Below are positions 1-23,055 of a DNA stretch of 23,924 nucleotides, one piece after another (the first letter of the stretch is position 1; each line of letters starts with the position of its first letter). Origin of the DNA: a virus; the IMG/VR virus record IMGVR_UViG_3300046777_003147, positions 1-23,924 of that record. One strand, 5' to 3'. The notes under the pieces were generated by a model that was given only the letters and a program-made list of their open reading frames with translations, did no database searches and was not told where the DNA came from. Made by a program: the position numbers and the translations under genes.

Positions 1-43
1 TCAAAAGAGACGACCAGTACCTTGATAACTTAATCCTCATAAT

Positions 44-115
44 GGGTCTGTAACTCAATGGTAGAGTAACGGGCTTTTAACCTGGAAGTTGTGGGTTCAA
101 ATCCCACCAGACCCA
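44..115 (+). tRNA. tRNA-Lys (anticodon TTT)
   Basis: This 72-base cloverleaf has an acceptor stem of GGGTCTG (44-50) against CAGACCC (108-114), discriminator A115, D-arm ACTC/GAGT, anticodon loop CTTTTAA with TTT at its centre, and T-arm GTGGG-TTCAAAT-CCCAC. The anticodon stem has one mismatch (27:43). No CCA is encoded, so the host CCA-adding enzyme is needed. Only three bases separate it from the next tRNA, so the two are probably cut from one transcript. Confidence 0.93.
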
Positions 116-118
116 TAA

Positions 119-192
119 GGGAAATTAGCTCAGTTGGTTAGAGCGTACCCCTGATAAGGGTAAGGTCACTGATTCAAATTCAGTATTTCCCA
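119..192 (+). tRNA. tRNA-Ile (anticodon GAT)
   Basis: This 74-base cloverleaf has acceptor stem GGGAAAT (119-125) against ATTTCCC (185-191) and discriminator A192. The anticodon stem TACCC/GGGTA encloses loop CTGATAA with anticodon GAT, which reads AUC and AUU. No CCA is encoded. It is followed at once by the hairpin and late promoter of an HNH endonuclease gene. Confidence 0.95.
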
Positions 193-237
193 TTGGAACT
201 TATTACTAATATAAATAATATTAGTCAGATGTTCCAA
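193..237 (+). promoter_or_regulatory. T4-type late promoter inside a two-tier hairpin
   Basis: An exact T4 late-promoter octamer TATAAATA lies at 210-217. It overlaps an inverted repeat, ACTAATAT (205-212) against ATATTAGT (218-225) with loop AAATA. This is enclosed by an outer pair, TTGGAAC (193-199) and GTTCCAA (231-237), so the arms end one base before the ATG at 239. In T4 late transcripts start 6-7 bases after the octamer. Here that would be near 223-224, which removes the 5' arm. Read-through transcripts from upstream would keep the full hairpin next to the start codon. I infer that translation is blocked early and allowed late. Confidence 0.75.
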
Positions 238-238
238 T

Positions 239-703
239 ATGAACTCTTGTTTAGAATGTGGCAATTTAACTAAAACTAAATTTTGTAGTAGAAGTTGTTC
301 TGCCTCATATAATAACAGAGTTCGTCCTAAACGCAGTCCCGAACATAAATGCATTGATTGCGGAAAACCAATTAATGCTAAAAGAGCAAGATGCAAAGAG
401 CATTATCTTCAATGGTTAAAATCCAAAGAAGTAAAAGATATAACTCTTTCGGAAGCAATTTATGATAAGCATCATAGGTCTTCTGCATATGCTCTAATCA
501 GGACTAGAGCAAGATCAATTGCCAAAAAACTTGGACTTGACACTTGCGAAAAATGCGGTTATAATAAACACGTTGAGATCGCTCACAAAAGAGGGATTTC
601 AACCTTTGAAGGTGATACGCTAATTAGCATAATCAACTCCAAAGAAAACCTAATGGCATTATGCCCTAATTGCCATTGGGAATATGATCATAATTTATTG
701 TGA
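239..703 (+). CDS. HNH endonuclease, free-standing, probable homing type
   Basis: The 154-residue protein has a C-terminal HNH fold: C103-x2-C106, a histidine at 116 (EIAHKRG), N137 in the SKENLMALC segment, C142-x2-C145 and H146, with H151 near the end. Cysteine pairs nearer the N terminus (C4/C7 with C16/C20, and C38/C41 with C52/H55) look like two small zinc-binding modules. Such enzymes nick or cut DNA, and free-standing ones in T-even phages spread by homing into neighbouring sequence. It sits between tRNA-Ile(GAT) and tRNA-Arg and has its own late promoter and hairpin. The ATG at 239 is the only start that keeps the first zinc pair. No Shine-Dalgarno sequence is visible. The HNH call is firm. 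Homing activity is inferred from its position among tRNA genes. Confidence 0.88.
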   Translation: MNSCLECGNLTKTKFCSRSCSASYNNRVRPKRSPEHKCIDCGKPINAKRARCKEHYLQWLKSKEVKDITLSEAIYDKHHRSSAYALIRTRARSIAKKLGLDTCEKCGYNKHVEIAHKRGISTFEGDTLISIINSKENLMALCPNCHWEYDHNLL

Positions 704-709
704 TCTGAT

Positions 710-782
710 GCCCCTGTAGCTCAGTAGACAGAGCATCGCTCTTCTAAAGCGTTGGTCGTGGGTGCAAATCCTACCAGGGGTG
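710..782 (+). tRNA. tRNA-Arg (anticodon TCT)
   Basis: This 73-base cloverleaf has acceptor GCCCCTG (710-716) paired with CAGGGGT (775-781), a G:U first pair and discriminator G782. The anticodon loop CTTCTAA gives TCT, which reads AGA/AGG. These codons suit an AT-rich phage better than its host. No CCA is encoded. It starts six bases after the HNH gene stop. Confidence 0.92.
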
Positions 783-969
783 CTTGGCAATCTAGGATAA
801 ATACCTTATGATTGTCTTCTGCTTATCCATTTTGTAGTGGGTTTTAAAGGATAAGCAACAGGAAACCTACTTGAAAAAGAGAGAGTGAAAAACCCCATCT
901 GCAAGTCGGTGTGAAACAGACCTATGACTTGTATGCGATTCTGTTTCATTGTATGGATCTCTCTCATTT
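783..969 (+). ncRNA. Candidate structured RNA between tRNA-Arg and tRNA-Gly
   Basis: No credible ORF fills this gap, but it is rich in perfect inverted repeats: TGCTTATCC (820-828) with GGATAAGCA (849-857); TGAAACAGA (912-920) with TCTGTTTCA (940-948); and GAGAGAG (879-885) with CTCTCTC (959-965) enclosing the second hairpin. A further copy of GGATAA at 795-800 could compete for TTATCC (823-828), giving two alternative folds. GATAAATA at 796-803 is one base off the late-promoter octamer. T4 encodes two stable RNAs of unknown function (C and D) in its tRNA cluster, so a similar product is plausible. It would be cut out with the flanking tRNAs. Function is unknown. Confidence 0.45.
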
Positions 970-1041
970 GCGGAAGTAACTCAACGGTAGAGTACCTGCC
1001 TTCCAAGCAGGCTGTTGCGGGTTCAAATCCCGTCTTCCGCT
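970..1041 (+). tRNA. tRNA-Gly (anticodon TCC)
   Basis: This 72-base cloverleaf has acceptor GCGGAAG (970-976) against CTTCCGC (1034-1040), with discriminator T1041, usual for bacterial tRNA-Gly. The anticodon stem CCTGC/GCAGG encloses loop CTTCCAA with anticodon TCC. The T-arm is GCGGG-TTCAAAT-CCCGT. No CCA is encoded. Confidence 0.95.
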
Positions 1042-1043
1042 CT

Positions 1044-1058
1044 GAACCTTTAAGGTTC
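1044..1058 (+). repeat. Perfect palindrome between tRNA-Gly and tRNA-Asn
   Basis: GAACCTT (1044-1050) and AAGGTTC (1052-1058) are perfect complements around T1051, followed by TTATT. In the transcript this can form a short hairpin that fills most of the 21-base spacer between the two tRNAs. It may be a processing signal or a weak terminator. The T run is too short to call it a terminator. Confidence 0.4.
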
Positions 1059-1062
1059 TTAT

Positions 1063-1134
1063 TCCGAGTAGCCCGCAAGGTGCGGGAGCAAGCTGTTAAC
1101 TTGTTATAGGTCAGTTCGATTCTGACACTCGGAG
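1063..1134 (+). tRNA. tRNA-Asn (anticodon GTT)
   Basis: This 72-base cloverleaf has acceptor TCCGAGT (1063-1069) with ACTCGGA (1127-1133), discriminator G1134 and D-stem CCCG/CGGG. The anticodon stem GCAAG/CTTGT encloses loop CTGTTAA with anticodon GTT. No CCA is encoded. It is three bases from the next tRNA. Confidence 0.93.
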
Positions 1135-1137
1135 TAT

Positions 1138-1209
1138 GGGGTGTTCGTATAACGGTTATTACTCTGGATTTGCAATCCAGCAATAAGGATTCAATTTCCT
1201 TACACTCCA
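1138..1209 (+). tRNA. tRNA-Ala (anticodon TGC)
   Basis: The acceptor GGGGTGT (1138-1144) pairs with ACACTCC (1202-1208), discriminator A1209. The third pair is G1140:T1206, the G3:U70 wobble that is the main identity element for alanyl-tRNA synthetase. The anticodon stem CTGGA/TCCAG closes a seven-base loop TTTGCAA, which puts TGC at positions 34-36. The D-arm is weak (three clear pairs). A shifted reading as tRNA-Cys(GCA) is less likely because it loses stem pairs and would not explain the G3:U70 pair. Confidence 0.87.
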
Positions 1210-1212
1210 TTA

Positions 1213-1237
1213 TATAAATACTTCAAAAATGAAGTAT
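1213..1237 (+). promoter_or_regulatory. T4-type late promoter overlapping a start-site hairpin (dps)
   Basis: TATAAATA at 1213-1220 is an exact T4 late-promoter octamer. Its end is also the 5' arm of a hairpin, ATACTTC (1218-1224) with GAAGTAT (1231-1237), loop AAAAAT. The arm ends one base before the dps ATG at 1239 and includes the only purine-rich ribosome-site candidate (GAAG, 1231-1234). Late transcripts should begin near 1226 and lack the 5' arm. Read-through tRNA-operon transcripts would form the hairpin. Confidence 0.7.
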
Positions 1238-1238
1238 A

Positions 1239-1673
1239 ATGGAAAAACTATATAAAATACTATCAGATACTCAAGCAAGTCTTTTTGTACTTTTCCAAAA
1301 GACTTGGGTGTATCATTGGCATATTACTGGACCTGACTTTTATCAAATTCATACATTATTTGGTGAGCAATATAATGCTCTCTTTGAAGAAGTTGATAGA
1401 ATCTCAGAACACATTCGCTTTCTTGGTGCTAAACCCGTAAGTGCTCTTTCAAGAGTATCTGAGGTTTCTAGGGTATCTGAAGCAAAGAGTGGTCTTTCGG
1501 AAATGCAAATGATTCAAGATTTGCTTGATGACCATAAAAAAATTGTAGAAATGTTTGCTGAAGCAGCAGAAGTTGCAGAAGAACTTAAGTCAAGAGGAAC
1601 TACCAATCTTCTTGATGATCTAAATGAAGCACATGGTAAGTTTATTTGGTTTTTAAGATCATTTACGGAATAG
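1239..1673 (+). CDS. dps: Dps-like ferritin-family protein
   Basis: Dps proteins assemble into 12-subunit shells that oxidise and store iron with peroxide and protect DNA. The 144-residue sequence shows the Dps signature from about residue 20 to 63: H26, G31, F34, H38, D53 and E57 keep the spacing of the inter-subunit ferroxidase ligands (H31, H43, D58, E62 in Listeria Dps). The acidic ligand expected four residues after the second histidine is G42, with E43 next to it. Residues 71-82 contain a tandem six-residue repeat (SRVSEV then SRVSEA), where other members usually have a short loop. The N terminus is short, without the lysine-rich tail of E. coli Dps, so direct DNA binding is uncertain. 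It has its own late promoter and stands alone between tRNA genes. Protection of phage DNA or iron handling late in infection is inference. Confidence 0.85.
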   Translation: MEKLYKILSDTQASLFVLFQKTWVYHWHITGPDFYQIHTLFGEQYNALFEEVDRISEHIRFLGAKPVSALSRVSEVSRVSEAKSGLSEMQMIQDLLDDHKKIVEMFAEAAEVAEELKSRGTTNLLDDLNEAHGKFIWFLRSFTE

Positions 1674-1685
1674 GGATGAAGAACA

Positions 1686-1937
1686 ATGATTTCTATAAGA
1701 TGCAAAGATTGTAATAAAGAAATAACAGGACACCCAACAAAAACTGTAACTTGCGGTTGTCCTAATATGGCAACAATTCGTGGAGATAAGATTTCTGCAG
1801 TTGACTTATCACGTATTGTTATGTTAAACTCTATAAAAGAAAAGCAAAAATCTGGAGTTCTTACTCAAGAAGACGTTGCTTGGCAAGAAGCACGTCGTCA
1901 ACGTAAAGTTAGACGACTTGATTTTGAAGTCCGTTGA
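1686..1937 (+). CDS. Small conserved protein with zinc-ribbon-like start
   Basis: The 83-residue product starts with C6-x2-C9 and, after a short basic stretch, C23-x-C25, which resembles a single zinc knuckle. The rest is predicted helical and ends in a strongly basic segment (ARRQRKVRRLDFEVR, residues 69-83), so a nucleic-acid contact is possible. It begins 12 bases after dps and probably shares its late transcript. A GATGAAG stretch upstream could serve as a weak ribosome site. Similar small proteins occur in T4-like cyanophages as far as I recall, but I know no function. The cysteines could also be structural only. Confidence 0.7.
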   Translation: MISIRCKDCNKEITGHPTKTVTCGCPNMATIRGDKISAVDLSRIVMLNSIKEKQKSGVLTQEDVAWQEARRQRKVRRLDFEVR

Positions 1938-1944
1938 GGACTTT
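1926..1944 (+). terminator. Short hairpin over the stop codon, before tRNA-Ser
   Basis: AAGTCC (1927-1932) pairs with GGACTT (1938-1943), extended by a G1926:T1944 wobble, with loop GTTGA containing the TGA stop of the 83-residue ORF. It is followed by TTTC and, three bases on, by tRNA-Ser. It may be a weak terminator or a signal for cutting mRNA away from tRNA. Six base pairs and a short T run make termination uncertain. Confidence 0.35.
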
Positions 1945-1946
1945 CT

Positions 1947-2033
1947 GGAGGGGCAATCCGATTGGCGACGGAACCTGTCTTGAAAACAGTTGAGGTGTTA
2001 AATCCCTTAGGAGTTCGACTCTCCTTCCCTCCG
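1947..2033 (+). tRNA. tRNA-Ser (anticodon TGA)
   Basis: This is an 87-base type II tRNA. Acceptor GGAGGGG (1947-1953) pairs with TCCCTCC (2026-2032), discriminator G2033. The anticodon loop CTTGAAA gives TGA (reads UCA). A long variable arm follows (about 1992-2010), then T-arm GGAG-TTCGACT-CTCC. The long arm and discriminator G are the usual serine identity features. No CCA is encoded. Confidence 0.93.
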
Positions 2034-2084
2034 TTTTATAAAATTAATATTTTCTTTATCAGTGTTACGGAATGAACACATATG

Positions 2085-2117
2085 TTGACTTCTTGGTACT
2101 GGCAAGTAGTATATAAT
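2085..2117 (+). promoter_or_regulatory. Possible sigma70-type promoter, poor spacing
   Basis: TTGACT (2085-2090) and a perfect TATAAT (2112-2117) precede the ORF start at 2139, but the gap is 21 bases, four more than ideal. TATATA at 2110-2115 gives 19. The -10 box favours starting the downstream ORF at 2139 rather than at the earlier in-frame ATG at 2082. Confidence 0.35.
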
Positions 2118-2138
2118 AATAACCTACTAATAAAACAA

Positions 2139-2297
2139 ATGGACCAACATACTTATGATAATTGGGTCCGTATTAAAGAGACTTTTGAAAAGTCTGGAAA
2201 TGTTAATAACATGTTCTACAAAAGAGCATGTGCAATCATAAAGACAGGAAAAGATCCTTTAGAAAAAATTCTTGGAGATAAAAAGAATGAAGGATGA
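2139..2297 (+). CDS. Small protein of unknown function (52 residues)
   Basis: The 52-residue product begins MDQHTYDNWVRIK and has the composition of a short, mostly helical, charged soluble protein with no cysteine pair, membrane segment or signal peptide. I chose the ATG at 2139 because a TATAAT box lies at 2112-2117. The longer in-frame form from 2082 would add 19 residues and run through that box. The 3' end overlaps the next ORF by 11 bases, which suggests coupled translation. I have the impression that it is shared among T4-like cyanophages, but I cannot assign a role. Confidence 0.6.
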   Translation: MDQHTYDNWVRIKETFEKSGNVNNMFYKRACAIIKTGKDPLEKILGDKKNEG

Positions 2298-2487
2298 ATT
2301 TTGGCAAAAAAGACAATTTATCTTAAGTTCTTTTGTAAGACAAAATATTACAGTAAGTACTCAGGTTTATCGTTTTGTTGATAAAATCATTAGAGAAAAT
2401 TGGGATCTTGGGAAATATGATCTCAATGAAATTGATAAAATTATTCGACAATCTTATGAAGAACATTTACGAAATGGACAAGGATGA
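2287..2487 (+). CDS. Small protein of unknown function (66 residues)
   Basis: The 66-residue product starts MKDEFWQKRQ. A GGAG ribosome site at 2274-2277 lies nine bases before the ATG at 2287, so the upstream in-frame TTG at 2272 is not needed. The sequence alternates hydrophobic and charged residues, as in a small helical bundle, with no recognisable motif. It overlaps the previous ORF by 11 bases and the next by 14, and all three are in different frames, so they are very likely read from one message. Function unknown. Confidence 0.65.
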   Translation: MKDEFWQKRQFILSSFVRQNITVSTQVYRFVDKIIRENWDLGKYDLNEIDKIIRQSYEEHLRNGQG

Positions 2488-2632
2488 AGTTCAATCAATG
2501 ATTGACCAATCAATTGCAAAGGCCATTGACAAACACAATAAGTCTGCTACAATTATCTCAGCAGCAATCGGTTCAGTACTTCTTCTTTTTTATGCTCACG
2601 GTGTTTTCGCAGTGGTTGACAAGATGAGGTAA
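2474..2632 (+). CDS. Small single-pass membrane protein
   Basis: The 52-residue product has a charged helical N-terminal half (MDKDEVQSMIDQSIAKAIDK) followed by one strongly hydrophobic segment of about 20 residues (roughly 24-45, SATIISAAIGSVLLLFYAHG) and a short basic tail. This predicts a single inner-membrane helix with a small cytoplasmic domain. The ATG at 2474 is chosen over the longer frame from 2375 because that extension lies wholly inside the preceding gene. Its last codons contain the -35 box of the promoter for tRNA-Pro. Function is unknown. Size and topology would fit a phage protein acting at the host membrane. Confidence 0.6.
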   Translation: MDKDEVQSMIDQSIAKAIDKHNKSATIISAAIGSVLLLFYAHGVFAVVDKMR

Positions 2633-2644
2633 TTCTGCTATTAT
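2616..2644 (+). promoter_or_regulatory. Strong sigma70-type promoter for tRNA-Pro
   Basis: A perfect -35 box TTGACA (2616-2621) is followed after 17 bases by TATTAT (2639-2644), five of six to consensus, with an extended -10 TG at 2636-2637. Transcription would start near 2651, seven bases before tRNA-Pro. The -35 lies inside the 3' end of the small membrane-protein gene. Such host-like promoters serve early genes in T4-like cyanophages. Confidence 0.75.
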
Positions 2645-2657
2645 ACATAAGAAGAAA

Positions 2658-2732
2658 CGGGGTGTAGCTCAGCTTGGATAGAGCACTGCTTTTGGGAAGC
2701 AGGGGCCGTAGGTTCAAATCCTATCACCCCGA
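2658..2732 (+). tRNA. tRNA-Pro (anticodon TGG)
   Basis: This 75-base cloverleaf has acceptor CGGGGTG (2658-2664) with CACCCCG (2725-2731) and discriminator A2732. The C1:G72 first pair is typical of bacterial tRNA-Pro. The anticodon stem CTGCT/AGCAG encloses loop TTTGGGA with anticodon TGG. No CCA is encoded. Confidence 0.95.
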
Positions 2733-2748
2733 CTCATAAACTCAATTT

Positions 2749-2982
2749 ATGAAAATGACAGACGACATTGATCAACTTCAAAGATTTACAGTTGAAGAAT
2801 TTCAAGCAGACTTTGACAATCTAATGAATAGAGTCGAAAATGGAGAATCATTCATTATTACAAGTGAGCATGGAAATGCTGTGATGGTTCCTTACAAAGA
2901 AGTAATAGAAATATGTGAGGAGGCAGATGTGGATTTTGATGAGATAGTTAGAATTCATACTAATCACGAAGAAGGTTCGTGA
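2749..2982 (+). CDS. Phd/YefM-type antitoxin-like protein
   Basis: The 77-residue product matches the N-terminal fold of Phd/YefM antitoxins: a strand and helix around FTVEEFQADFDNLMNRVENG (12-31), then ESFIITSEHGNAVMVPYKE (32-50), where the family has a strand pair ending in a VP-Y/E element. The acidic C-terminal half (EICEEADVDFDEIVRIH) would be the disordered toxin-binding tail. Phd proteins bind their own promoter and neutralise Doc- or RelE-type toxins. No toxin gene is adjacent, since tRNAs lie on both sides. It may therefore counter a host toxin or act only as a DNA-binding regulator. Two starts are possible, 2749 or 2755. The family call is moderately firm and the role is inferred. 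Confidence 0.72.
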   Translation: MKMTDDIDQLQRFTVEEFQADFDNLMNRVENGESFIITSEHGNAVMVPYKEVIEICEEADVDFDEIVRIHTNHEEGS

Positions 2983-2989
2983 TTTTTAT

Positions 2990-3061
2990 GGGACTGTCGC
3001 CTATGGGTTAAGGCCCACTGCTTATAACGGTGTGAACTGAGTTCAAGTCTCAGCAGTCCTA
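2990..3061 (+). tRNA. tRNA-Ile (anticodon TAT)
   Basis: This 72-base cloverleaf has acceptor GGGACTG (2990-2996) with CAGTCCT (3054-3060), a G:U first pair, discriminator A3061, D-stem GCCT/AGGC and T-arm CTGAG-TTCAAGT-CTCAG. The anticodon stem CACTG/CGGTG encloses loop CTTATAA, so the anticodon is TAT, which reads AUA. Most bacteria read AUA with a CAT tRNA modified to lysidine by TilS. This form needs no such modification. Confidence 0.88.
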
Positions 3062-3063
3062 TT

Positions 3064-3094
3064 TACATACATTTATTATAAATAGGTGTATGTA
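3064..3094 (+). promoter_or_regulatory. T4-type late promoter in the loop of a start-site hairpin (second HNH gene)
   Basis: TATAAATA (3077-3084) is an exact late-promoter octamer. It lies in the 15-base loop between TACATACA (3064-3071) and TGTATGTA (3087-3094), a perfect eight-base inverted repeat. A late start near 3090-3091 would drop the 5' arm and the AGGTG at 3084-3088. The architecture is the same as before the HNH gene at 239, although the arm sequences differ. Confidence 0.75.
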
Positions 3095-3110
3095 TATGTT
3101 CATAACTAAA

Positions 3111-3530
3111 ATGATTATTTGCAAATCTTGCGGTAAGGAAGTTGAACAACATCCACAAAAAGGTGGAAGAACAAAACTTTATTGTAATGAAACTTGTCGA
3201 ATGAAATGGAGATACAGAAATGATCCTTGTGTTATGAATAGAAACACTTATACTGAACAAAAGGAAAGGGCATACTCCAATAAATGGAAAGCACTTCAAT
3301 ATAAAGGTGGTAAGTGTCAGCAATGTGGTGAAGATAGACCTGCAACTCTATGCTTCCATCATAGAGATCCTTCTCAAAAAGAACTAAAACTTGATGGGAG
3401 ATCTTTTGCAAATAGAAAGTGGGAAACAATCAAAGAAGAAGTTGATAAATGCGATCTTCTTTGCCATAACTGTCACAATATGCTACATTATGGAGATAGT
3501 TGGGGAGAGTTCCTACAAACGCTGGTTTAG
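3111..3530 (+). CDS. HNH endonuclease, free-standing, probable homing type
   Basis: With the start at 3111 the product has 139 residues. An N-terminal zinc module has C4-x2-C7 and C25/C29. The HNH core has C69-x2-C72, H83-H84 (LCFHHRDP), C118-x2-C121-H122 and H126. Starts at 3090 or 3096 are in frame and give 146 or 144 residues. I prefer 3111 because the late promoter predicts a transcript beginning near 3090 and because the start then places the first CxxC exactly as in the other HNH gene (MNSCLEC, here MIICKSC). It follows tRNA-Ile(TAT) and runs ten bases into tRNA-Met. Apart from the shared fold it differs widely from the HNH protein at 239, so the two look like separate arrivals. Confidence 0.85.
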   Translation: MIICKSCGKEVEQHPQKGGRTKLYCNETCRMKWRYRNDPCVMNRNTYTEQKERAYSNKWKALQYKGGKCQQCGEDRPATLCFHHRDPSQKELKLDGRSFANRKWETIKEEVDKCDLLCHNCHNMLHYGDSWGEFLQTLV

Positions 3531-3593
3531 CTCTCTGGAGAAAGCACTGCCCTCATAAGGCAAGACAGGTCGGTTCGATCCCGACAACCAGCA
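3521..3593 (+). tRNA. tRNA-Met (anticodon CAT)
   Basis: This 73-base cloverleaf has acceptor GCTGGTT (3521-3527) with AACCAGC (3586-3592), discriminator A3593, anticodon loop CTCATAA and T-arm GTCGG-TTCGATC-CCGAC. The G1:C72 pair excludes an initiator tRNA. A CAT anticodon could also be Ile2 (lysidine), but a separate Ile(TAT) already covers AUA, so elongator Met is favoured. Its first ten bases encode the last codons and stop of the HNH gene. No CCA is encoded. Confidence 0.9.
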
Positions 3594-4812: not shown

Positions 4813-5313
4813 ATGAAAATAGGATTTAATTGTAGTTCTTTTGACTTATTTCATGCTGGGCATGTTACTATGCTTAAAATGGAAAAGGAGATGTGCGACT
4901 ATTTAAAAGTGGCACTTCAAGTTGATCCATCAATTGATAGACCTGGTATTAAAAATAAACCAGTTCAATCTGTTTATGAAAGATATGTTCAACTTCAAGG
5001 ATGTAAATATGTCGATGAAATTCTTGTTTATGAAACTGAAGCTGACCTACTCAACTTGATTAAAACTCAAACATTTCATATTAGATTCTTAAGTGAAGAA
5101 TATAGGCATGTTGAAGTGACTGGAAAACAATATTGTCTTGATAATGGAATAGAAATTTACTATCACCTGCGTAGACATCAATATTCATCTTCAGAAATTA
5201 GAAATAGGGTTTATCTCCTTGAAAAAGAAAAGATAGATAAGAAAGAAGTAATTGAGTCACCTAGACAGTACTCCCCAGAACTTCTGAAAAAATATTCATT
5301 GAAGAATAATTGA
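4813..5313 (+). CDS. Nucleotidyltransferase of the cytidylyltransferase (TagD/RfaE) family
   Basis: The 166-residue protein belongs to the small alpha/beta nucleotidyltransferases that join CTP or ATP to a sugar or polyol phosphate. It has the nucleotide-binding HxGH motif H14-A-G-H17 after a first strand (MKIGFNCSSFDLF), a conserved ERY-like segment (YERYVQL, 55-61), and the closing SSSEIR motif (125-130), which matches the ISTT/SS-x-IR loop of the family. Glycerol-3-phosphate cytidylyltransferases are about 130 residues long, so about 30 extra residues form a C-terminal tail. It is related to the second half of the fusion protein at 21446. It opens the operon, and its sugar substrate is unknown. 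Confidence 0.82.
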   Translation: MKIGFNCSSFDLFHAGHVTMLKMEKEMCDYLKVALQVDPSIDRPGIKNKPVQSVYERYVQLQGCKYVDEILVYETEADLLNLIKTQTFHIRFLSEEYRHVEVTGKQYCLDNGIEIYYHLRRHQYSSSEIRNRVYLLEKEKIDKKEVIESPRQYSPELLKKYSLKNN

Positions 5314-18394: not shown

Positions 18395-19238
18395 TCAAAT
18401 TGGTAATTTAGGTAGACTTGGAAATCAAATGTTTGAATATGCCGCATTGCGTGGTATTGCGTCATACCATAATTATGAATGGTGCATTCCACCTTTCCAT
18501 ATGAAAGGAATAGAAAATTATAGTTTAAATGAGTGTTTTAAACTGGAATCTGTTGAAGAAAAAAACTTGAATATTCTGGAAAACATTAAATATGTTGGAG
18601 AAAGATTTTTTCATTTTGACCAAGAGTTATTTGAAAAATGTCCAGACAATGTAAGTCTTCATGGATTTTTTCAGTCTGAGAAGTATTTTAGTCATATTGA
18701 AAAAGATATTCGTAAAGATTATACTTTTATAGACGAACATTTAGAACCATGTGTAGAGTTCATGTCGGAATTTGATGGACAAGAACCAATTATGCTTCAT
18801 GTTCGTAGAGGAGATCCTAATTTAGTTGATCCTAGGGGTTTTAAGTGGGCATATGTAAACTGTTCTGACCAACATCCTGTCCAACCTTTATCATATTATG
18901 AAGAAGCACTACAGCATTTTAATGATACTCAACCTGTAATTGTTTTTTCTGATTCTCCAGATTGGGTAAAAGAACAAGAGTTTTTCTCCAGTGACAGGTT
19001 TTTAATTTCGGAACCACAAGACAAGTATGGTGATGGTTCTTATCTGCCTTATGTTGATTTGTGTTTGATGTCTCTCTGTTCTCATGCTATTATTGCAAAT
19101 AGTTCTATGAGTTGGTGGGGTGCTTGGTTGCAAACTAATCCTAATAAAAAAGTAATAGCACCTAAAATGTGGTTTGGTCCCGCATATGCCGATAAAGATA
19201 CTAAAGACCTTTATTGTTCAGACTGGATTGTAATTTAA
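18381..19238 (+). CDS. Alpha-1,2-fucosyltransferase, GT11 (paralog)
   Basis: The 285-residue protein shows GRLGNQMFEYA (11-21), HVRRGD (140-145) and NSSMSWWGAWL near the C terminus, the three GT11 motifs. It resembles the gene at 16019 along its whole length and has an inserted loop of about 15 residues after the HVRRGD motif (NLVDPRGFKWAYVNCSDQ). The upstream in-frame extension from 18210 lies within the previous gene, so ATG 18381 is the start. Two GT11 enzymes with different loops suggest two acceptor positions for fucose in the same glycan. The stop codon TAA shares one base with the next ATG. Confidence 0.9.
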   Translation: MLAFNQIGNLGRLGNQMFEYAALRGIASYHNYEWCIPPFHMKGIENYSLNECFKLESVEEKNLNILENIKYVGERFFHFDQELFEKCPDNVSLHGFFQSEKYFSHIEKDIRKDYTFIDEHLEPCVEFMSEFDGQEPIMLHVRRGDPNLVDPRGFKWAYVNCSDQHPVQPLSYYEEALQHFNDTQPVIVFSDSPDWVKEQEFFSSDRFLISEPQDKYGDGSYLPYVDLCLMSLCSHAIIANSSMSWWGAWLQTNPNKKVIAPKMWFGPAYADKDTKDLYCSDWIVI

Positions 19239-20185
19239 TGTACGTTTCTTCTTGCCCTTTAAGAGTTTCATTGTTTGGTGGTTCAACAGATAATCCATAT
19301 TTCGTAGAAAAGTATGGGTATGGCGCAGTAATTAGTTTTTCTTGTGATCTTAAAACTTATATTACCTTGCATGAAGACAAGTTTGGATATAATATGCAAG
19401 GACACAAGTATATTGTTAATTACTCTAAAAGAGAAGAGACTGAATATATTGGGGACATTCAGAATGATTTGGTACGTGTTGTATTAAACTATTTTGGATG
19501 TTTTCCTTTGACAGTAAGTATGACAAGTGATGCTTATTCACAGGGAAGTGGTTTAGCATCATCTTCATCATACTTAATTAATCTAATTAAATGTGTTTCA
19601 ATGTTCAAGGGTATAAACATGACTGACATTGAAATCTGTTCTTTGGCGTATCAATTGGAAAGAGAGTTTAATCCTTATTGTGGTTATCAAGACTCATATG
19701 GATGTGGTATTGGTGGATTTAAAAGAATTGAATTTCAAAGAGGCGGAATTGTAAAGTACGATTTCCAATCAACAGAACTTTTTGAAAATTATGATGTCCA
19801 TCTGATTTTTACCGGAGTTACAAGAAATTCTAAAAATGTATTAAAAGATGTTAGTGATAATGTGGATAAAATATCTCCTTTGCTTGACACTTTAGAAGTT
19901 GCTTATGATTCTCTTCTTCAAAAAAATTATGATGAGTTTTTGTTTTATTTGAATAAAAGTTGGCAACAGAAAAAAGAAACAAGTTCTTTGATTATTGAAA
20001 ATTTAAAAATAAAAGAGATTGATGAATATTTACTAAATAATCCACTTGTAATTTCACATAAATTATGTGGTGCAGGTAATGGTGGTTTTTTCTTGACTTT
20101 TTCCGAAAAGAATAAATTGACACTACCATATTCATCAGTTAAAATTAACGTATCCTCAGATGGAGTAAAAGGTAAAAAATTATGA
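19238..20185 (+). CDS. hddA: GHMP kinase, heptose-7-phosphate kinase (HddA type)
   Basis: HddA phosphorylates D-glycero-D-manno-heptose 7-phosphate at C1. The 315-residue protein has the GHMP motifs PLRVSLFGGSTDNP (7-20), SQGSGLASSSS (101-111, ATP loop), and CGAGNGGFF near residue 285. REFNPYCGYQDSYGCGIGGF matches the region where HddA proteins have a GxQDQY element. The length is close to Campylobacter HddA (about 339). The next genes on are a methyltransferase, a GmhA isomerase and a phosphatase-nucleotidyltransferase fusion, so heptose is the natural substrate. Fucokinase-type or other sugar-1-kinase activity is the alternative. The stop overlaps the next ATG by four bases. Confidence 0.85.
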   Translation: MYVSSCPLRVSLFGGSTDNPYFVEKYGYGAVISFSCDLKTYITLHEDKFGYNMQGHKYIVNYSKREETEYIGDIQNDLVRVVLNYFGCFPLTVSMTSDAYSQGSGLASSSSYLINLIKCVSMFKGINMTDIEICSLAYQLEREFNPYCGYQDSYGCGIGGFKRIEFQRGGIVKYDFQSTELFENYDVHLIFTGVTRNSKNVLKDVSDNVDKISPLLDTLEVAYDSLLQKNYDEFLFYLNKSWQQKKETSSLIIENLKIKEIDEYLLNNPLVISHKLCGAGNGGFFLTFSEKNKLTLPYSSVKINVSSDGVKGKKL

Positions 20186-20943
20186 TTACACTGGAAACAG
20201 AACATCCTGCAGCATTAGAATCACCAGATCATATTTCACCAGTTGGAACAGTAAACGATAATACAACTGATGCAGATTATATTGCTGCTGTAAAAAATTA
20301 TTTTAAAAAGTCGCCACTTAAGATGATGGACCTTGGGTGTGCTGGTGGTCAACTAGTTGTTGATTTTATTGAATCTGGAGACTATGGTGTTGGTTTGGAG
20401 GGTTCAACACATGCAAGAGAGCGTGGTGCAGGAAAACACAATTGGGATAAGTATGGTGATAAAAACCTATTTACGGTAGACTTAACTAAACCATATCAAT
20501 TGTATGATGATGGGGAAAAAGTAAAGTTCGATTTTATTACTACATGGGAAGTTGTAGAACATATTGCTGAAGAAGACCTACCAATGTTTTTCGGAAATAT
20601 CAAAAATCACTTGGAAGATGATGGTGTTTTTTGTTGTTCTATAGCAGTAGTTCGTGATGATGTTGGGTATATTGATGGGAAACTAGTAAGTCGTCATCAG
20701 TCGGTTTTTAACCCAGCAAAATGGATTAATATCCTATTTGATAATGGTTTTGAACTCGCTATTGATCCTTCTTGGCCTGCTGCTCCTGCTGGTCTTGAAT
20801 ATGCTCATCATCCAGATAAACCTGCTGGAGTTGTTGCTAAACCTCATGGTCTATTTTTTGGTTATCTATTTGGTGATGCAATGTTTAGAAATCACAATGA
20901 CCGTGGAAATAGCATTTATTTTTGTTTGAAGAAAAAATCCTGA
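20182..20943 (+). CDS. SAM-dependent class I methyltransferase
   Basis: The 253-residue protein has the SAM-binding MMDLGCAGGQ (48-57), an acidic second strand (GVGLEG, 69-74), and TTWEVVEHI (120-128), the post-motif common in UbiE-like and sugar methyltransferases. The N-terminal segment before the motif and the C-terminal FGYLFGDAMFRNHNDRG are shared with no family that I can name. It lies between the heptose kinase and the heptose isomerase genes and overlaps both, so methylation of the heptose or of its product is an attractive inference. Campylobacter capsules, for instance, carry O-methyl heptoses. A different glycan target remains possible. Confidence 0.8.
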   Translation: MITLETEHPAALESPDHISPVGTVNDNTTDADYIAAVKNYFKKSPLKMMDLGCAGGQLVVDFIESGDYGVGLEGSTHARERGAGKHNWDKYGDKNLFTVDLTKPYQLYDDGEKVKFDFITTWEVVEHIAEEDLPMFFGNIKNHLEDDGVFCCSIAVVRDDVGYIDGKLVSRHQSVFNPAKWINILFDNGFELAIDPSWPAAPAGLEYAHHPDKPAGVVAKPHGLFFGYLFGDAMFRNHNDRGNSIYFCLKKKS

Positions 20944-21449
20944 TGCCTAATCCATTTACGCAGTATATTGATGCTCTTCAGGGTGCCCATATTGAAGAGC
21001 AATTTCAGAAATTTAAAGAAGCATTTGACAAGTACAATAACATTATAATTTTAGGAAATGGTGGAAGCAACTCTGTTGCTTCTCATATTTCTCAAGATTA
21101 TGTTAAGTTCCATAATAAAAACTCAATGGTTTTTTCTGATCCATCAATGCTCACTTGTTTTATTAATGATTTTGGAATGGAACAGGCTTATTGCCGCTTT
21201 CTTCAGTATTATGCCAAATCAGATACTCTTTGTATATTGATTAGTTCTGGAGGAGAGTCTAAAAACATTATTAATTGTATCAAGTACTGTGAAAATAATT
21301 CAATACCTTATGGTATTCTGACTGGATTTAGTCCCTCAAATAAAGCAAGAAGTATTGCAAATAATGCTCTTTGGGATTATCATATTCCAAGTAGAGATTA
21401 TGGAATTGTTGAGTGTGTCCATCAAATTTTTCTTCATGGGGTTGTATGA
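20943..21449 (+). CDS. gmhA: Sedoheptulose-7-phosphate isomerase
   Basis: GmhA turns sedoheptulose 7-phosphate into D-glycero-D-manno-heptose 7-phosphate, the first step to activated heptose. The 168-residue SIS-domain protein has GNGGSNSVASH (38-48), ISSGGESKNI (100-109), and the C-terminal VECVHQIFLH (156-165), which holds the zinc-site histidines. Compared with E. coli GmhA, E65 is replaced by D52 and Q172 by E157, while the two histidines (H48, H165) are kept. The length (E. coli 192) lacks part of the N-terminal helix. The ATG at 20943 shares a base with the previous stop. Sedoheptulose 7-phosphate is plentiful in cyanobacteria through the Calvin and pentose phosphate cycles. Confidence 0.86.
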   Translation: MPNPFTQYIDALQGAHIEEQFQKFKEAFDKYNNIIILGNGGSNSVASHISQDYVKFHNKNSMVFSDPSMLTCFINDFGMEQAYCRFLQYYAKSDTLCILISSGGESKNIINCIKYCENNSIPYGILTGFSPSNKARSIANNALWDYHIPSRDYGIVECVHQIFLHGVV

Positions 21450-22162
21450 GATATTGCTTTGATATTGACGGAACTCTTTGTCATACTCCAAATAATGAAA
21501 AAGGAAAACCAGATTATGAAAATGCTCAACCATACCCTTTTATGGTTGAGCAAATTAATAAGTTGTATGATGATGGAAATTATATTATTTTTCAAACTGC
21601 CAGAGGAAAAGGTTCAGGTATAGATCATACAGAACTTACTAAAAAACAATTGAGTGATTGGGGATATAAGTACCACGAATTATTTCCAATGTTCTGTAAA
21701 CCAACTGCGGATATTTTTATTGATGATAAGGGTATTAATGTTGAGGACTGGAAAAATAATCAACCATTAGTTAAGGGCATTGTTGCTGGTGCATTCGATT
21801 TAATTCATCCTGGATATATTAGAATGTTTGAAGAATGTAAAAGATATTGTAATTATCTTACAATTGCTCTTCATGAAGATCCATCTTTTGATAGACCTCA
21901 TAAATTAAAACCAGTACAAACTTTATATGAAAGAATCGAAATTCTAAAGTCAATTAAATATATTGATAATGTGATTACATATCAAGAGGAAGAGACATTT
22001 TTATCATATCTTGACAGTTATGATGTTAGATTTTTAGGGGATGATTATAAAGATGGTTCTTATACTGGGAGGGATAAGGATATAAAAATTATTTTTGTTA
22101 GTAGAGACCATGGTTATTCTACAACTAAACTTAAAACTAAAATATATGAGTCAATGAAATGA
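21446..22162 (+). CDS. Fusion of HAD phosphatase and nucleotidyltransferase
   Basis: The 238-residue protein joins two enzymes. Residues 1-105 are a HAD phosphatase with FDIDGTLC (5-12, nucleophile D6 and D8), FQTARG (49-54) and K85 then FIDDKG (91-96). Residues 109-238 are a cytidylyltransferase-fold nucleotidyltransferase with GAFDLIHPGY (115-124), DPSFDRP, YERIEIL and YSTTKLKTK (224-232). The last residue of the HxGH nucleotide motif is Y124 instead of His. In the heptose route the phosphatase would remove the 7-phosphate (GmhB role) and the second domain would add the nucleotide (HddC or HldE-C role). The second domain is homologous to the gene at 4813. The fusion would complete the route begun by gmhA and hddA. 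Which NTP is used is unknown. Confidence 0.85.
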   Translation: MRYCFDIDGTLCHTPNNEKGKPDYENAQPYPFMVEQINKLYDDGNYIIFQTARGKGSGIDHTELTKKQLSDWGYKYHELFPMFCKPTADIFIDDKGINVEDWKNNQPLVKGIVAGAFDLIHPGYIRMFEECKRYCNYLTIALHEDPSFDRPHKLKPVQTLYERIEILKSIKYIDNVITYQEEETFLSYLDSYDVRFLGDDYKDGSYTGRDKDIKIIFVSRDHGYSTTKLKTKIYESMK

Positions 22163-23055
22163 AAGCATTAGTAACTGGTGGAGCAGGATTTATTGGTTCA
22201 AATCTTGTGGATAAACTTATTAGTATGAATTGGGAGGTGGTTGTAATTGATAATCAATCTGCTGAATGTAATGAAAAATTTTATTGGAATGATAAAGCAG
22301 ATAATCATAAGTTAGATATTTGTGATTATGAGAATACAATATCTTTGTATAAAGATGTTGATTATGTTTTTCATTTGGCAGCAGAGTCTAGACTTCAACC
22401 AGCAATTAAAAATCCTATCAACGCAGTAACAAAAAACGCGGTTGGAACTTGTACTGTTCTTCAATGTGCAAGAGAATCGGGTGTCAAAAAAGTAATATAT
22501 TCTTCAACATCATCTGCCTATGGATTAAACAAATATCCAAATTATGAAACAGACCCTAATGATTGTATAAATCCATATTCAGTATCGAAAGTTTCTGGTG
22601 AAGAATTGTGTAAACTTTACACTAATCTATATGGTCTTAAAACCATTATCTTCAGATACTTTAATGTTTATGGGGAGCGTTCTCCAACTACAGGTCAATA
22701 TGCTCCAGTAATTGGTATTTTCTTACGTCAGAAAAATGCTAATGAATCACTTACTGTTGTTGGTGATGGGGAACAGCGTAGAGATTTTGTTCATGTTCAA
22801 GATGTTGTTAATGCAAATATTATGGTTTCCTTAGCAAATCTTTGTGACCACTATTATGGTCAAGTTTATAATATTGGGAGTGGTGAAAATATTTCAATTA
22901 TTGAAATTGCAAATATGATTTCTAATGACCATGTTCATATACCTGCTAGAGAGGGAGAGGCACGAACTACTCTTGCTTGTATTGACAAAGCAAAAAATAC
23001 TTTTGGGTGGGAACCGAAATTTAATGTTAGAAAGTGGATTGAAGAAAACGTATGA
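22159..23055 (+). CDS. NAD-dependent nucleotide-sugar 4-epimerase (GalE/WbpP-like)
   Basis: The 298-residue extended-SDR protein has GGAGFIGS (7-14), HLAAES (72-77), YSSTSSAYG (114-122), the catalytic Y140-x3-K144 (YSVSK), and RYFNVYGERS with a following QRRDFVHVQDVV. The arrangement matches UDP-hexose 4-epimerases, especially the UDP-GlcNAc or UDP-glucose type. The true substrate could also be an NDP-heptose, given its place right after the heptose fusion gene (ATGA overlap). The length is near the usual 310-340. Overlap with the next gene is four bases. Confidence 0.85.
   Translation: MKALVTGGAGFIGSNLVDKLISMNWEVVVIDNQSAECNEKFYWNDKADNHKLDICDYENTISLYKDVDYVFHLAAESRLQPAIKNPINAVTKNAVGTCTVLQCARESGVKKVIYSSTSSAYGLNKYPNYETDPNDCINPYSVSKVSGEELCKLYTNLYGLKTIIFRYFNVYGERSPTTGQYAPVIGIFLRQKNANESLTVVGDGEQRRDFVHVQDVVNANIMVSLANLCDHYYGQVYNIGSGENISIIEIANMISNDHVHIPAREGEARTTLACIDKAKNTFGWEPKFNVRKWIEENV

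Follow-up and report, generated by a model that had tools for sequence, protein, structure and literature searches.

Known Routes to Activated Heptose and a Related Cyanophage Locus

The nucleotide-activated heptoses known for comparison are the guanosine diphosphate (GDP)-alpha and adenosine diphosphate (ADP)-beta forms. The GDP-type route relies on an isomerase of the GmhA family and a kinase of the HddA family, and the classical HddA route uses guanosine triphosphate (PMC10680097). In the ADP-heptose route of Escherichia coli, HldE is a fusion of a ribokinase-type beta kinase with a nucleotidyltransferase. Here, a related locus is described from the viral record IMGVR_UViG_3300046777_003147. 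The whole stretch that was analyzed, hereafter the window, is a cyanophage fragment of 23,924 bases. At 19238-23055, five genes overlapping end to end encode a kinase, a methyltransferase, an isomerase, a fusion of a HAD phosphatase-type domain with a nucleotidyltransferase domain (HAD::nucleotidyltransferase), and an epimerase. The kinase, isomerase, and fusion probably constitute a module for the synthesis of nucleoside diphosphate (NDP)-heptose, and the epimerase probably tailors its product.

The HddA/GmhA-family route comprises the same four steps that are proposed here, with an isomerase and a kinase of the same families. The differences are that, in the window, the phosphatase and nucleotidyltransferase form one protein, the HAD domain belongs to another subfamily, and the nucleotidyltransferase fold differs from that of HddC. 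Like HldE, the window protein is a two-domain fusion, and its nucleotidyltransferase half is from the same superfamily as the C-terminal domain of HldE. However, the nucleotidyltransferase is paired with a phosphatase, its motif reads HPGY rather than HxGH, and the kinase, of the GHMP type, is encoded as a protein of its own. An earlier note on this DNA had drawn the contrast between the two fusions correctly.

SynMITS9220M01 (MT408532) has the kinase, isomerase, fusion, and epimerase in the same order, with 61-65% protein identity and no methyltransferase inside the module. In its announcement, three of these genes (kinase, isomerase, and epimerase) are given as heptose-related lipopolysaccharide (LPS) genes, and the fusion is called a “hypothetical protein” (PMC7378029). 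The P-SSM2-type cyanophage cassette contains the same HAD family and a nucleotidyltransferase of the same superfamily, but as separate genes, and its kinase is of the HldE type (PfkB family, TIGR02198 148 bits). AfhF (PDB 9iqw) belongs to the same small HAD family (38% identity) and is proposed to remove the terminal phosphate from an aldose bisphosphate before nucleotide transfer; it differs in that it stands alone in a pentose route whose isomerase is of the KpsF/GutQ type and whose kinase and nucleotidyltransferase are unrelated. The Campylobacter jejuni system for cytidine diphosphate (CDP)-6-glucitol was also considered. A HAD::nucleotidyltransferase protein was not found in it, and its cytidylyltransferase belongs to another family (PF01128). 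A literature search for the HAD::nucleotidyltransferase fusion returned nothing. The literature searched does not describe the domain architecture of the fusion or how broadly it is conserved, nor does it describe the combination of an alpha-type kinase with an HldE/TagD-type nucleotidyltransferase, the HPGY motif, or the chromosomal copies, the GmhB swap, and the HddC-type::GmhB fusion discussed below.

Gene Order and Conservation of the Module

The first 104 residues of the fusion form the HAD half, and residues 109-236 form a CTP_transf_like domain (PF01467 E 5e-12) of the TagD/HldE-C superfamily. The AlphaFold model, built from 55 aligned sequences, is one confident two-domain chain (predicted local distance difference test score 92, predicted template modelling score 0.84). 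The viral scan returned at least 80 contigs with the fusion; neighbors were counted over 86 fusion loci and motifs over 88 fusions. Since the fusion is full-length in 86 loci with its neighbors in order, it is neither a chance product nor a sequencing artefact. The HddA gene lies upstream in every locus with room for it (65/65), and the isomerase gene abuts the fusion in 70 of 73 such loci and is one gene away in two others. The epimerase gene abuts it in 79/86 loci and lies within 6 kb in all.

The genes named in the earlier note sit at the coordinates claimed, within a run of five overlapping reading frames (stop/start overlaps TAATG, ATGA, TGATG, ATGA, and ATGA), and the fusion it had read from the letters holds up, with profile matches to both halves. 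The kinase, isomerase, and fusion are indeed adjacent with a methyltransferase, but they run in the order kinase, methyltransferase, isomerase, fusion. The note had omitted the epimerase downstream, which is a constant fourth member. The methyltransferase does lie inside the module; it is an optional insert, present there in only 15 of 65 loci, and stands outside the route. The isomerase starts at ATG 20943 rather than at TTG 20922, as the mechanical list of open reading frames had it.

The module is widespread in cyanophages and also occurs in some picocyanobacterial chromosomes. Five picocyanobacterial genomes carry its genes without the methyltransferase: G035 (one 1.94 Mb contig), G212 (on a 581 kb contig), and G001-G003, which are partial Prochlorococcus single-cell genomes. 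Of 300 genomes sampled from the family, 25 had HddA-like matches, and these five alone had the full-length fusion. In the three genomes looked at closely, the proteins are 51-76% identical to those of the window. G035 and G001 share the neighborhood of the module, which includes, a few genes away, a gene that by eye resembles ketol-acid reductoisomerase. In the tree, the host copies group together as a single clade, seemingly nested within the phage sequences. Phage monophyly was not rejected by the approximately unbiased test (p 0.53, 0.55), so no direction of transfer is claimed.

Family Membership and Catalytic Residues

For the kinase, HddA is the best NCBIfam model (NF049969, 91 bits; next model, 52 bits), and the best PDB matches are solved heptokinases, namely 4n3o, WcbL (4usk), and 3k85 (E 3e-21 to 2e-18). 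In WcbL, mutation of R13, D22, S118-120, Q162, or D163 abolished activity (PMC4691232). All of these residues are kept in the window kinase and are invariant in 69 module kinases.

The top models for the isomerase are those of GmhA (PRK00414, 57 bits; TIGR00441, 51 bits), and in the PDB it is closest to phosphoheptose isomerases (1x94, E 8e-11). Residues H61, E65, Q172, and H180 of E. coli GmhA correspond to H48, D52, E157, and H165, which are invariant in 80 module sequences. The Asp and Glu changes are common to Caulobacter phage Cr30 and a Dehalococcoidia contig. Judged by sequence, the metal-site changes are conservative. The protein is classed as GmhA-like rather than as GmhA because the H-D-E-H set, together with a Phe for Arg69, is not the GmhA residue set.

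The HAD half carries the DxD, Thr, Lys, and DD motifs, which are intact in 87/88 fusions (one of these with Thr replaced by Ser). Its top Foldseek match is 9iqw, titled as the D-arabinose 1,5-diphosphate phosphatase AfhF of phage HY126; structures of HisB-N, T4 Pnkp, and GmhB rank lower. The HAD-IIIA model gave 13.6 bits, and no GmhB model matched at E 0.1.

The nucleotidyltransferase half folds like TagD (1coz, the best Foldseek match) and the heptose adenylyltransferase HldC (5xf2). It scores 58 bits with TIGR01518 (cut-off 165.4) and 55 bits with TIGR02199 (cut-off 181.5). With both scores below the cut-offs and with HPGY instead of HxGH, it was assigned neither to TagD proper nor to HldE-C/HldC proper, although the fold superfamily is common to them. 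HddC was rejected as well, as Pfam gives CTP_transf_like and no GT-A NTP_transferase. The two models, specific for cytidine triphosphate and adenosine triphosphate, respectively, score alike and favor neither nucleotide. HPGY is found in 88/88 fusions, so that the second His is Tyr in each, whereas TagD, HldE, and the aligned stand-alone relatives keep HxGH. The first His, Arg163, Arg220, and Ser225 of the site are invariant. Among nucleotidyltransferase relatives in 386 cyanobacterial genomes, two module copies stand out (E 1e-73, 2e-69), the rest reaching 6e-20 at best. Of the weaker matches that were read for the motif, two gave no match and the others had HxGH.

The epimerase matches GalE (TIGR01179, 151 bits) and, in the PDB, 4zrm, a uridine diphosphate-glucose 4-epimerase (E 5e-49). 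HldD was tried and rejected, since TIGR02197 gave 116 bits (cut-off 274.6), less than GalE, and Lys178 of HldD is absent. The window protein has Thr at that position. The SynMITS9220M01 epimerase (SynMITS9220M01_207, L011 18746-19633) has Arg, which makes its labels as HldD and ADP-heptose 6-epimerase doubtful. The window epimerase also lacks the Asp-Glu pair of 4,6-dehydratases. Without this pair and without Lys178, C4 epimerization would be likelier than C6 epimerization.

The Proposed Pathway and the Case for Heptose

In the scheme that follows, the substrate chain length, the anomer, the nucleotide, the use of the product, and the whole epimerase step are predictions from the sequence. The SIS isomerase would convert sedoheptulose 7-phosphate to heptose 7-phosphate, and the HddA-type kinase would add a C1 phosphate to give the alpha-1,7-bisphosphate. 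The HAD half would then remove the 7-phosphate, and the C-terminal half would transfer a nucleotide to the resulting heptose 1-phosphate, forming NDP-alpha-heptose. The GalE/WbpP-like SDR protein would epimerize the NDP-heptose, and the product may feed the glycosyltransferases of the surrounding glycan cluster. The earlier note had seen here the complete path from sedoheptulose 7-phosphate to NDP-heptose. This is borne out in that the four steps are represented, most catalytic residues are kept, and chromosomal relatives point to heptose; it falls short in that the isomerase and the nucleotidyltransferase have invariant changes at catalytic positions. Its further suggestion that the phage drains carbon from the host is not supported, sedoheptulose 7-phosphate being also an intermediate of the pentose phosphate pathway.

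Several comparisons argue for heptose. In five picocyanobacterial genomes (G119, G239, G091, G279, and G289), genes for an isomerase and HddA lie next to one for a single protein that combines a GT-A nucleotidyltransferase with a GmhB-type HAD. Two of these proteins score with the HddC and GmhB models. As in the window, nucleotidyltransferase and phosphatase are on one chain, but the two domains are in the opposite order, the folds of the nucleotidyltransferases are unrelated, and the HADs come from different subfamilies. The fusion of G212 has lost Thr51 and Asp93 of the HAD half, the sole such case among the 88, and G212 is the only module-bearing genome with a GmhB, which scores above the curated cut-off (157 bits) and lies ~1.9 kb from the module. 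No GmhB was found in G035 or in the partial genomes G001-G003, whose HAD halves are intact. This swap is one case, yet it is the one that a heptose pathway predicts, and it suggests that the HAD half works like GmhB despite belonging to another HAD subfamily. P-SSM2 has a HAD of the family seen in the window together with genes for an HldE-type kinase and a nucleotidyltransferase. In a megaphage genome of 595 kb (LR756511; L013 5035-6411, LR756511.1), an HddA-type kinase is fused to an HPGY nucleotidyltransferase in HldE-like order.

Other observations weigh against a heptose product. The kinase score is below the 600-bit equivalog cut-off of NF049969, and the GmhA-model scores of the isomerase fall below their equivalog cut-offs as well; with scores so far below the NCBI cut-offs, both proteins are divergent family members. 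Glu65, Gln172, and Arg69 of GmhA are replaced by Asp, Glu, and Phe, and a loop is shorter, so the substrate of the isomerase may differ from that of GmhA. The second His of the nucleotidyltransferase is lost throughout. The closest solved HAD, 9iqw, is titled for a pentose bisphosphate, its function being taken from the PDB title, and the GmhB swap rests on the single genome G212.

The best surviving alternative, itself unlikely, is that the same four steps yield a different activated aldose, for instance an NDP-pentose such as NDP-D-arabinose made from ribulose 5-phosphate; a route of this kind has been proposed for arabinosylating T4-like phages. The title of 9iqw and the departures of the isomerase from GmhA at substrate- or metal-contacting residues would fit such a product. 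Because the sole HAD relative with an assigned substrate is titled for a pentose bisphosphate, the pentose route of phiE142, an RB69-like phage, was examined. Its isomerase is of the KpsF/GutQ type (TIGR00393, 111 bits), whereas no KpsF/GutQ model matched the window isomerase at E 0.1. The phage also has a 561-residue GT-A nucleotidyltransferase protein, which weakly matches an APH-like kinase. The HAD is the only part in common, and the window module was not placed in the RB69-like NDP-arabinose route. The replacement of the HAD by GmhB in G212 likewise speaks against a pentose. On families and comparison, a pentose product is less likely and heptose is favored.

It is rather improbable that the module ends at heptose 1-phosphate, with an inactive HPGY domain, and that the nucleotide is transferred by a host enzyme or by the HAGH protein encoded at 4813-5313. 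The invariant Tyr, where HldE, TagD, and stand-alone relatives keep His, and the presence of a second, HAGH-type enzyme in the window are consistent with this possibility. However, the other invariant residues suggest a working site, the chromosomal copies and the megaphage protein keep HPGY, and, for most fusion loci, the flank that was searched showed no stand-alone nucleotidyltransferase. Finally, it is very improbable that the two halves work apart from the kinase and isomerase, with a polyol phosphate as substrate (e.g., giving a TagD-like CDP-polyol): TIGR01518 does slightly outscore the RfaE domain II model (58 vs. 55 bits) and TagD is the best fold match, but this disagrees with the strict linkage to HddA and the isomerase, the megaphage kinase fusion, and the G212 swap, and a phosphatase acting before the nucleotidyltransferase is hard to explain with a one-phosphate substrate.

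Coordinates and Other Features

The positions of the module genes and of the HddC-type::GmhB fusions are collected in Table 1.

Table 1. Features of the proposed heptose module in the window and of the compared picocyanobacterial fusions.
Feature	Position	Strand	Evidence
HddA-type GHMP sugar kinase, 315 aa, proposed C1 kinase	19238..20185	+	NF049969 91 bits, PDB 4n3o E 3e-21
S-adenosylmethionine methyltransferase, 253 aa, optional insert	20182..20943	+	PF13489 E 1e-12
GmhA-type SIS isomerase, 168 aa	20943..21449	+	GmhA models 57 and 51 bits, PDB 1x94 E 8e-11
HAD::cytidylyltransferase-like fusion, 238 aa	21446..22162	+	phrog_1238 (residues 1-104), phrog_7878 (112-234)
HAD phosphatase half of fusion	21446..21757	+	D6, D8, T51, K85, D93, D94; 9iqw 38% identity
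Nucleotidyltransferase half of fusion	21770..22159	+	HPGY (H121, Y124), R220/S225/T227; PF01467 E 5e-12
SDR nucleotide-sugar epimerase, GalE/WbpP-like	22159..23055	+	TIGR01179 151 bits, PDB 4zrm E 5e-49
HddC-type::GmhB fusions	L149 5764-7017; L158 4640-5884; L165 4698-5945; L169 4438-5682; L173 6951-8207		

Nucleotide-sugar and glycosyltransferase-like genes form a long run in the window. The stand-alone nucleotidyltransferase at 4813-5313 (RfaE domain II, 61 bits; HAGH motif) adjoins a gene resembling deoxythymidine diphosphate-glucose 4,6-dehydratase and is 39% identical to the C-terminal half of the fusion. At the left end (43-3593), small open reading frames lie among ten transfer RNA genes, and those at 239-703 and 3090-3530 are zinc-ribbon or HNH-like by eye.

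Related domain combinations were seen elsewhere. The HAD family of the fusion is also fused behind a cytidine monophosphate-sugar-synthetase-type domain (PF02348) in Lachnospiraceae, Bacteroidetes, and one picocyanobacterium (L027, L032, L045, L053, and relatives; L149 12837-13901), which is another phosphatase-nucleotidyltransferase pairing with another fold. A 498-residue picocyanobacterial protein (L175 6583-8079, minus strand) has the HldE domains reversed, with the nucleotidyltransferase first and the kinase second. The small HAD of phrog_1238 (e.g., L012 9086-9430, L176 6980-7366, and L177 8986-9297) is labelled “phosphoheptose isomerase” in hundreds of phages and is a HAD phosphatase by sequence and fold; these labels name the wrong reaction.

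Significance

The LPS of marine Synechococcus WH8102 and CC9311 has been reported to lack heptose (PMC4515613). Tentatively, and with some doubt, the HPGY nucleotidyltransferases could form a new enzyme class, in which Tyr substitutes for the second His and which activates alpha-heptose 1-phosphate. Their product could be a novel nucleotide heptose (e.g., CDP- or ADP-alpha-heptose), and the module could circulate between phages and picocyanobacteria. If the heptose assignment is true, the module would represent a third route to activated heptose, in which a kinase of the GDP-route type works with a nucleotidyltransferase from the ADP-route superfamily and a phosphatase from a family known through the arabinosylation of phage DNA.

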